Of a DNA stretch of 64,000 bases, positions 56,164-62,813 are shown in pieces. Each line of letters opens with the position of its first letter. The stretch's first letter is position 1. Source of the DNA: Rhodospirillaceae bacterium (GTDB lineage: Bacteria; Pseudomonadota; Alphaproteobacteria; UBA6615); NCBI GenBank assembly GCA_002713365.1, contig PASR01000008.1:396363-460362 (forward strand), written 5' to 3'. A program made the translations under genes and the position numbers. The notes under the pieces were generated by a model, which saw only the letters and a list, made by a program, of their open reading frames with translations, ran no database searches and was not told the DNA's origin.

Positions 56164-57000
56164 CTAATTATTCGCATGAATAGATAGTTGTGCCATTACT
56201 GCTGCAGCTGTTTCTTCAATCGACCGCCTAGTTACATCGATAACTGGCCAGTTTCTTTCTGAAAAATAACGCCTTGCTTCAGTAATTTCCGCACGTACTT
56301 TATCGGGGTCTATATATGGGGTTTCTTCTTTTTGTTTTAATATTGCTAGACGAGCCCTTCTTAGTTCAACCAATCTTTTAGGGTCATTAGTTAGTCCAAT
56401 AACTATGGCATTTTTGATCCGATCCAAAATTTCTGGAAGCGGAATCCCTGGCACATATGGCACATTAACAGCTTTTACACCACGGTTTGCCAAATATAGA
56501 CAGGTAGGTGTTTTGGATGTTCTGGAGACGCCAACTAATATAACATCAGATTGATCATATTCCTCCGAACGTTGCCCATCATCATGTGCTAAAGCCCAAT
56601 CCATGGCTTCAATACGCTCAAAATATTCAGCATCCATCTCGTGTTGTCCACCTATTCGATGCACGGGTTGAGCGCCCAGAAATTGACCAAAGGCTGCAAT
56701 AACTGGATCAAGAACAGAAATACATGGTATTTTTAACCTACGACAACCTTCTCGCAACTGCTTTCGTAAAGCATCATTCACTAGAGTGAACATAACCGGT
56801 CCGGGTTTATCCTTAATAGCGTCAAGAACAATTTGCATGGCTTCTTCTGAGCTAGCCATTGGCCAAACATGTTCCACTGCCTCCACATGATCAAATTGAA
56901 CTAAGCAAGCACGCGCTACAGAGTGGATAGTTTCTCCGGTAGAATCAGATACCAAGTGTAAATCAAACACCTGGTTTCCTAAAGATTCACTTTTATTCAT
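56164..57000 (-). CDS. ppsR: PpsR/PDRP-type bifunctional kinase/phosphotransferase (DUF299)
   Basis: ADP-dependent kinase and Pi-dependent phosphotransferase that controls pyruvate phosphate dikinase or PEP synthase. The 278-residue protein begins after a short N-terminus with VFDLHLVSDSTGETIHSVARA. It has the P-loop-like GVSRTSKTP at 157-165 and the C-terminal IDVTRRSIEETAAAV. It is the first gene left of the AT-rich hemE intergenic stretch, as in Caulobacter, where this gene flanks the replication origin. Confidence 0.94.
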   Translation of the reverse strand: MNKSESLGNQVFDLHLVSDSTGETIHSVARACLVQFDHVEAVEHVWPMASSEEAMQIVLDAIKDKPGPVMFTLVNDALRKQLREGCRRLKIPCISVLDPVIAAFGQFLGAQPVHRIGGQHEMDAEYFERIEAMDWALAHDDGQRSEEYDQSDVILVGVSRTSKTPTCLYLANRGVKAVNVPYVPGIPLPEILDRIKNAIVIGLTNDPKRLVELRRARLAILKQKEETPYIDPDKVRAEITEARRYFSERNWPVIDVTRRSIEETAAAVMAQLSIHANN

Positions 57001-57345
57001 TTACATTTAACCTGTTGAAAAGATTCTATAAACGTAGATAACTTATCTTTAAAAAATACATTATAAATAAATTAAATATCTCTGTTTTGATATCAACAGA
57101 CTGATACCCATTAGTATAAAGATATTCATATTCTGTGGATTAAAAATTAAATACTTTTTATCCCCAACTTTGTCCCTCAATATATTCATATTAACAAACA
57201 AGAAAAGTCCCTTACAACTTATACTTAAATATACATTTCCACAGTAACATCACGATATGAATAAAATATAATATAAGCTAATAAGTCTGAAGATTAAAAA
57301 TTACTCACATAATTCCTATCCACTACTATATCTACAACCTTTTAA

Positions 57346-57363
57346 ATTAATTTATAAATTAAT
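57346..57363. repeat. 18-bp perfect AT-only palindrome inside the candidate origin
   Basis: ATTAATTTATAAATTAAT is its own reverse complement. It consists only of A and T and sits within the AT-rich stretch, so it could help strand opening or serve as a protein site. Palindromes of A/T can also arise by chance in such sequence. Confidence 0.5.
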
Positions 57364-57393
57364 ATTTAGATATGGATTTGAATAGAATTCTAA

Positions 57394-57418
57394 GCTTAAT
57401 ATCAATAAATTATTAAGC
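57394..57418. promoter_or_regulatory. IHF-type site flanked by a 7-bp inverted repeat, upstream of hemE
   Basis: TATCAA-TAAA-TTA (57400-57412) fits the IHF consensus WATCAA-N4-TTR. The arms GCTTAAT (57394-57400) and ATTAAGC (57412-57418) are exact complements. It ends 34 bp before the hemE start. IHF sites occur in the Caulobacter origin, but the match is short. Confidence 0.4.
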
Positions 57419-57452
57419 ACATATTTAATACCAATATAGAATTGAAAATAAA

Positions 57453-58487
57453 TTGAAAAAAATATTTTTAGAAGCTTTAAATGGTAAAATTCTAGAAAGA
57501 CCACCATTTTGGTTTATGCGGCAAGCTGGTAGATATTTGCCGGAATATAGAGAAATTCGACACAATATTCCTTCATTTTTAGATCTGTGTTATAATCCTG
57601 TGTTTGCATCAGAAGTAACAATGCAGCCTATTGATAGATTTAAACCAGATGTTGCCATACTTTTTTCAGATATTTTAGTCATACCTGATGCACTGGGAAG
57701 AAAAGTTTCTTTTTCTAAAGGCATTGGACCTAAGCTTGATCCGATTATCTCTACAAAAGATGTTGAGAATCTATTAGTAAATAATATTAATCATCACCTA
57801 TCTCCAGTTTACGAAACAGTAAAAAAGGTTAAAAATAGACTTCCTGAAGATGTATCTTTATTAGGATTCGCTGGAGCACCCTGGACCGTTGCAACATATA
57901 TGGTTGAGGGAGGCTCTAGTCGTGATTTTTTAAAAGTAAAAACATGGGCTCGAGAAGATGCTGAAAGGTTTGATTGTCTTCTCTCAATATTAGTAGAAGC
58001 GACAACTGATTATTTAATTGGTCAGATAGAGGCTGGTGCTGATGCCATACAGATTTTTGATACTTGGGCAGGGATAGTACCATCTGATCAATTTAATAAA
58101 TTTGTAATAACTCCTACAAAAAAAATTATTTCTAATGTCCGTAAATTAAAACCTGATATTAAATTTATCGGTTTTCCTAAGGGAATAGGACCGGAGATAT
58201 CTACATATATTTCTGAAACAGGAATTGATTGTATAAGTATTGATAGTACTTTATCTCCAAATTACGCTGCTAAATATCTACAGGGAGATTGTACAATACA
58301 AGGAAACCTTGATCCAGTTGCGTTGTTAATTGGTGGTAAAACTATGCTAAAAGCAGCAGATGAAATAATAAAAAATTTGAATGATGGCCCATTTATATTT
58401 AATTTAGGTCATGGAGTTATGCCTCAAACACCACCAGAAAATGTTGTGTTATTAGCTGAACATATTAAGTCTCAAGGTAATCAATGA
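57453..58487 (+). CDS. hemE: Uroporphyrinogen decarboxylase
   Basis: Decarboxylates uroporphyrinogen III in heme synthesis. The 344-residue protein has the signature PPFWFMRQAGRYLPEYREIR near the N-terminus, GFAGAPWTVATYMVEGG and FNLGHGVMPQTPPENV. The only suitable start is TTG 57453; no ATG exists upstream in frame before a stop. Codon use is visibly more AT-rich than in most neighbours. Overlaps hemH by 4 bp (ATGA). First gene right of the candidate origin. Confidence 0.95.
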   Translation: MKKIFLEALNGKILERPPFWFMRQAGRYLPEYREIRHNIPSFLDLCYNPVFASEVTMQPIDRFKPDVAILFSDILVIPDALGRKVSFSKGIGPKLDPIISTKDVENLLVNNINHHLSPVYETVKKVKNRLPEDVSLLGFAGAPWTVATYMVEGGSSRDFLKVKTWAREDAERFDCLLSILVEATTDYLIGQIEAGADAIQIFDTWAGIVPSDQFNKFVITPTKKIISNVRKLKPDIKFIGFPKGIGPEISTYISETGIDCISIDSTLSPNYAAKYLQGDCTIQGNLDPVALLIGGKTMLKAADEIIKNLNDGPFIFNLGHGVMPQTPPENVVLLAEHIKSQGNQ

Positions 58488-61471: not shown

Positions 61472-61831
61472 CTATCGTGTTTGAATTGATCTAGCACAAT
61501 CGATACAAATAGCAGTAGCTAAGTCTTGCTTTAGTCTCTCTTGAGATATTTCTTCACCGCAATTTATACAGAATCCGTACTCATCATTATCGATACGGCT
61601 AAGTGCACTATCTATTTTCTTGATTTGTAATATACGTCTTTTTTGGGCTGCACCTGCAGTTTCTTTTGCTATCAAGGCATCCATTCTTGATAGTCTTCCA
61701 ATGCGTTGCTGATCTAGCTCTACGGGCGCAATGGATTTCGATGCTTTCTCTTTATGATTAATCACTTCCTTTTTCAAAGATTCTAGGGCAAATCTTATTG
61801 CTTTAACGTTTTTGTTAGTTTTTTTAACCAA
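61472..61831 (-). CDS. DksA/TraR-type zinc-finger protein
   Basis: From TTG 61831 the product is 119 residues. A coiled-coil N-terminal part is followed by a four-cysteine zinc finger, C-X2-C and C-X2-C with 17 residues between, in GFCINCGEEIS and ICIDCARS, and the RLSRMDAL motif. DksA-like proteins bind RNA polymerase and tune rRNA and stress transcription. The start was placed after the quinone reductase stop because a longer in-frame reading reaches 61957 inside that gene. Confidence 0.82.
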   Translation of the reverse strand: MVKKTNKNVKAIRFALESLKKEVINHKEKASKSIAPVELDQQRIGRLSRMDALIAKETAGAAQKRRILQIKKIDSALSRIDNDEYGFCINCGEEISQERLKQDLATAICIDCARSIQTR

Positions 61832-61838
61832 TTTTTTA

Positions 61839-62813
61839 CTAAGGCAACAATACCGTAGATCCAGTAGTTTTTCGGGCCTCAAGGTCCCGATGGGCTTGAG
61901 CAGTATTTTCGAGTGGATAGGTTTGATGAATCTCGATTTTAACTGCGCCAGAGCCAATCACACTAAATAAATCGTTAGCGCAGGACTCAAGGGCAGGGCG
62001 TGAAGCTGTGTAGTGAAATAACACTGGGCGAGTTACATAAATTGATCCATATGTTGAAAGGTCAATTATATTAAGTGGATCAGTAGCACCGGATGCGGCG
62101 CCAAAACATACTAGCATTCCAAGTGGTGATAAGCATTTCATAGAATTATAGAAAGTATCTTTTCCAACTCCATCGTATACTACGGGAACGCCCTCGCCTC
62201 CAGTAATTTCATTTACGCGCTCAACAAAGTCTTCAGTTTGGTAGTTTATCGTATGATGTACGCCATGCGCTTTTGCTAAATCTGCTTTTTCTTTACTACC
62301 CACTGTTCCTATTACTGTTGCTCCTAAGTGGTTTAACCACTGACTGGCAATAAGACCAACTCCCCCCGCTGCAGCGTGAAGTAAAACAGTCATTCCTGGT
62401 TCTACTCTAAATGTTTGTCTAATAAGAAACTGAGCTGTCATTCCCTTTAGCATAGATGCTGCAGCTACTTGGTCATTTACCCCATCTGGCAATTTAACAG
62501 CAATTTTAGCGGGCATAACACGTGCTTCTGAATACGCTCCGGCCGGCATATCAGCATATCCGATGCGATCCCCTACAGATAGGTGGTTTACGCCTTCGCC
62601 GACCTCCTCAACAATACCAGCGGCCTCTAGTCCAAGTATTGAGGGCATAGGTAGAGGTCTGACACCAGTTCGTAAGTATGTATCTATGTAATTGAGTCCT
62701 ATGGCTGTGTGACGAACAAGAATTTCGCCTTCAGATGGAGATCCTACATTAACTTCATCCCAGCTTAAAACTTCGGGACCACCCGTTTCGTGTATACGTA
62801 TTGCATGAACCAT
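61839..62813 (-). CDS. NADPH:quinone reductase-like zinc-free MDR dehydrogenase
   Basis: 324 residues of the medium-chain dehydrogenase superfamily. GVRPLPMPSILGLEAAGIVEEVGEGV and the cofactor loop LHAAAGGVGLIASQWLNHLGA are typical of bacterial quinone oxidoreductases, and no structural zinc cysteines are present. The ligand is not predictable. Ends 8 bp before the DksA-type gene on the same strand. Confidence 0.9.
   Translation of the reverse strand: MVHAIRIHETGGPEVLSWDEVNVGSPSEGEILVRHTAIGLNYIDTYLRTGVRPLPMPSILGLEAAGIVEEVGEGVNHLSVGDRIGYADMPAGAYSEARVMPAKIAVKLPDGVNDQVAAASMLKGMTAQFLIRQTFRVEPGMTVLLHAAAGGVGLIASQWLNHLGATVIGTVGSKEKADLAKAHGVHHTINYQTEDFVERVNEITGGEGVPVVYDGVGKDTFYNSMKCLSPLGMLVCFGAASGATDPLNIIDLSTYGSIYVTRPVLFHYTASRPALESCANDLFSVIGSGAVKIEIHQTYPLENTAQAHRDLEARKTTGSTVLLP

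Follow-up and report, generated by a model that had tools for sequence, protein, structure and literature searches.

The ppsR-hemE intergenic region as the predicted chromosomal replication origin of an uncultured alphaproteobacterial genus

The intergenic region and its boundary genes

The window, i.e. the whole stretch of 64,000 nucleotides analyzed here (positions 396363–460362 of contig C6), comes from a genome of 2.52 Mb in 19 contigs; coordinates below refer to the window unless a contig is named. The region of interest (57001–57452) separates ppsR on the left (56164–57000, minus strand), a member of the PF03618 Kinase-PPPase family and of COG1806, from hemE on the right (57453–58487, plus strand, PF01208, TTG start). 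We take COG1806 to be equivalent to the PF03618 family of ppsR. A preliminary description, prepared from the letters alone, had pointed to a gene-free, very AT-rich stretch of 452 bp flanked by divergent genes, and this holds to the letter: the gap measures exactly 452 bp, has a GC content of 21.9%, and contains no called genes. The same two genes flank the gap in about 20 relatives, where its length is mostly 444–495 bp. The TTG at 57453 is the apparent start of hemE, and the HemE proteins of the relatives align from that residue onward. Elsewhere in the window, two minus-strand open reading frames (61472–61957 and 61839–62813) overlap by about 120 bp, and the DksA-like one probably starts downstream of its listed TTG.

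GC skew, dnaA and parS

The cumulative GC skew, the check proposed in the preliminary description, was calculated on C6 (498 kb), whose stretches were joined for this purpose, and its minimum falls at C6:453701, i.e. at position 57339 of the window, inside the gap. Because the right arm comprises just 45 kb of C6, over which the skew is nearly flat, the analysis was repeated for a congener (G002), whose contig C5, sampled with alternate stretches of the left part left out, exhibits a clear V-shaped profile with the minimum at 356882, about 250 bp off the homologous gap (~357126–357589). The polarity of KOPS motifs (GGGNAGGG; 7 vs 1 in the right arm, 7 vs 10 in the left arm) is a weak indication, with too few sites.

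Perfect parS sites (GTTTCACGTGAAAC) occur only twice in the whole 2.52-Mb genome (C6:465323–465336 and 465599–465612), both 11.5 kb from the gap on the side of hemE and outside the window, and the single parS of G002 lies 11 kb from its own gap on the corresponding side. Both sites are located within rsmG (gidB), where they encode VSRET, and adjoin parA-parB (gene names assigned by reading the translations).

AT-rich gaps between divergent genes are frequent sites of promoters, and in many bacteria oriC is located next to dnaA. The gap could therefore be a mere divergent promoter region of ppsR and hemE, with the origin elsewhere, e.g. near dnaA, an outcome that the preliminary description had itself named as evidence against its proposal. 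In this genome dnaA lies about 100 kb from the gap (gene order rpsT-dnaA-dnaN) on a slope where the skew is still falling; it falls for 100 kb beyond dnaA and turns only in the gap. Together with parS and the conserved DnaA boxes (see below) at or near the gap, this renders the promoter-only explanation very improbable.

DnaA boxes: number and conservation

An exact-match scan of the 452 bp identified no perfect DnaA box (TTATNCACA). Sites with one mismatch number five (57134 and 57256 on the minus strand; 57158, 57301 and 57413 on the plus strand), compared with 0.98 expected from dinucleotide shuffles, and none of the 500 shuffles reached five. The gap is the only place on C6 with five such sites, and among 9,959 windows of 452 bp from this contig it ranks first both for low GC content and for box density. 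The preliminary description was right that perfect boxes are missing and that the one-mismatch sites are real, but it counted three of them rather than five, and only those at 57134 and 57158 turn out to be conserved. The sites at 57256, 57301 and 57413 were rejected as functional elements, as they are absent from the conserved set of the relatives and probably reflect chance.

Conservation was assessed in an alignment of six relatives and scored as the number of invariant columns in 10-bp blocks. Most of the top conserved blocks of the gap correspond to DnaA boxes; an AT-rich block at 57350 is also among the best. Of the 36 columns in the four main boxes, 24 are invariant, vs 68 of 416 elsewhere in the gap, a comparison in which the boxes were partly picked after the alignment had been seen, while two came beforehand from the mismatch scan. 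The best-conserved 10-mer (9/10 columns) coincides with the box TAATCCACA (57134–57142, minus strand), which in both congeners reads TGATCCACA, the G-box of Caulobacter; the aligned relatives share TGATCCAC- at this place. The box TTATCCCCA (57158–57166, plus strand; 8/10 columns invariant) contains the core TCCCCA of the Caulobacter W-boxes, and is replaced by a perfect TTATCCACA in both congeners and in the relative L019; the aligned relatives as a whole read TTATCC[A/C]CA here.

Further weak sites were found on both sides of this pair. The DnaA-box-like site TTTTCAACA (57013–57021, minus strand; 8/10 columns invariant among the six relatives) reads TTATCAACA in the relative L020, and we infer that it is a DnaA box. 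A decayed box, TTATCTACG (57033–57041, minus strand; 7/10 columns invariant), is represented by TTATCTACA in the congeners and by TTATCCACA in L019. The weak box ATTTCCACA (57235–57243, plus strand) is placed by a three-way alignment opposite TTATCCACA of L017 and TTGTCCACA of L018, and the decayed box-like site TTAATCTTC (57289–57297, minus strand; 7/10 columns invariant) has the counterparts TTTATCCTC in the congeners and TTGATCCGC in other genera. The DnaA-box cluster typical of a hemE-COG1806 origin is thus represented here by five one-mismatch sites, two of them conserved, and by further weak conserved sites. The absence of perfect boxes is real but minor, since two congeners possess TTATCCACA at aligned positions, and TAATCCACA and TTATCCCCA of the window are similar to the weak G- and W-boxes of Caulobacter.

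The DnaA protein

The gap without a perfect box had been taken in the preliminary description as a hint that relaxed sites are perhaps matched to a divergent DnaA, i.e. one of altered DNA specificity. The protein sequence contradicts this idea: domain IV aligns over its full length with that of E. coli DnaA (1J1V), the GGRDHTTV motif is intact, and the residues from HSARRARAV through KKVEELR match without exception those in the DnaA proteins of two congeners, whose origins carry TTATCCACA. By these sequence comparisons DnaA is a canonical member of its family in the DNA-binding domain, and an altered specificity is hardly credible. The weak boxes are most simply read as the product of drift, kept within what cooperative binding of DnaA tolerates, in a gap that is very rich in AT.

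IHF sites, the palindrome and the predicted unwinding element

An IHF-like site, TATCAACAGACTG (57091–57103, plus strand), one mismatch from WATCAANNNNTTR, lies in a block conserved among the six relatives and is identical at 10 of 13 positions to the IHF site of E. coli oriC (quoted in PMC4285127); the genome encodes an IHF-beta (ihfB) homolog that scores above the model cut-off. The IHF-type site of the preliminary description, at 57400, is a genuine and exact match to the consensus, but 15% of shuffles contain at least one such match, and the relatives do not conserve it. It was accordingly rejected as a functional element, and on the sequence evidence 57091–57103 is the better candidate. 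The 18-bp A/T palindrome noted at the same time (57346–57363) likewise exists, but an equal or longer one occurs in 2.25% of shuffles, a level that chance can attain, and the alignment revealed that the relatives do not preserve its palindromic form, so it was also discarded.

The least stable DNA of the gap forms a predicted unwinding element (57323–57442) next to hemE, which includes both the palindrome and the skew minimum at 57339. By nearest-neighbor energy, the least stable 100 bp start at 57343 and rank within the eight least stable places on C6. A DnaA-trio-like ACTAC element (here ACTACTA; 57322–57328, plus strand) borders the AT-rich part on the left and belongs to a conserved block. 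Since ACTAC is kept at this edge in 6/6 compared relatives, and a relative from another genus (L023) exhibits a box-spacer-CTACTACTT arrangement, opening could perhaps proceed via DnaA-trio basal unwinding at the conserved CTAC element (57322–57338), which would be compatible with the gap being oriC. However, a search for this system (a box, a short spacer and at least three trios; criteria adapted from PMC8287927) did not identify it in the gap: the window, like most relatives, does not possess three consecutive trios beside a correctly oriented box, and the trio pattern turns up in 33% of shuffles of the AT-rich gap. We therefore consider this mode of opening possible but unlikely.

CtrA and other regulators

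The genome encodes GcrA, and none of its proteins passes the CtrA model NF045991 (cut-off 350; best score 137.6 bits); no protein above this cut-off was found in the congeners G001 and G002 either, whereas CtrA of several further family members scores >415 bits. No exact CtrA site (TTAA-N7-TTAA) is present in the gap, nor in the corresponding gaps of those tested relatives that do have CtrA. CtrA thus appears to have been lost in the genus, and because no CtrA exceeds the cut-off and the gap has no exact TTAA-N7-TTAA, gating by CtrA as in Caulobacter is unlikely here. One may speculate that in a genus with apparent CtrA loss weakened boxes, instead of blocking by CtrA, restrain firing, with the species of the window having gone furthest by losing its perfect boxes, but we regard this as improbable.

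Prediction of oriC and a possible mechanism

As the skew minimum, the nearby parS, the maximum of AT content and box density, the conserved boxes and the known gene order agree, we predict with high confidence that the ppsR-hemE intergenic region (57001–57452), the spot of lowest GC content and densest one-mismatch boxes on C6, is the chromosomal oriC and belongs to the ancestral hemE-ppsR (Cori) type of alphaproteobacteria. The central claim of the preliminary description, that the gap is oriC, is thereby borne out by the skew minimum within it, parS 11.5 kb away, the AT and box maximum, the conserved boxes and the gene order. The assignment is strong but computational, and origins of the Cori type are already known, so that the window adds a member to this kind.

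In the proposed mechanism, standard DnaA-ATP would load onto the array of weak boxes (~57013–57297), probably assisted by IHF bending near 57091, and the resulting DnaA complex would open the AT-rich DNA at ~57323–57442 beside hemE, whereupon two forks would depart in opposite directions. The binding of DnaA and IHF, the site of opening and the tolerance of weak boxes by cooperative binding, as in Caulobacter, are all inferred.

The prediction fixes the start of replication for an alphaproteobacterial genus that has not been cultured, and the ancestral hemE-ppsR origins gain a well-conserved case that apparently lacks CtrA. It also illustrates that a zero-mismatch scan for TTATNCACA can overlook a clear origin, which comparison of relatives exposes.

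Comparison with known origins

The origins of Caulobacter and Rickettsia are located between hemE and COG1806 orthologs, which is likely the ancestral order (PMC1914354, Ioannidis et al. 2007), so that the placement beside hemE cited in the preliminary description agrees with the published order hemE-ori-COG1806; the same study described a candidate origin of Neorickettsia that has no DnaA boxes. With Cori-type origins, for which a gap of ~400 bp is typical, the region shares its place between hemE and ppsR (452 bp here), the skew reversal at the gap and an AT content above that of the genome. Cori of Caulobacter crescentus itself uses weak sites, namely G-boxes (TGATCCACA) and W-boxes with the core TCCCCA (PMC4285127, PMC4468827); in the window, TAATCCACA is one change away from the G-box, and TTATCCCCA has the exact W-box core. 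Unlike Cori, the gap has no exact TTAA-N7-TTAA and a much lower GC content, and the genome has no CtrA over the cut-off, whereas the boundary genes (hemE and COG1806/ppsR; PMC1914354), the length of ~400–450 bp, the AT-rich part and the putative IHF-like site are alike. The origin of Rickettsia prowazekii (hemE-RP001) belongs to another lineage and has published CtrA and IHF sites, in contrast to the present gap with no exact CtrA site, but it resembles this gap in its boundary genes, its similar length (384 bp) and its AT content of ~80% (PMC1914354).
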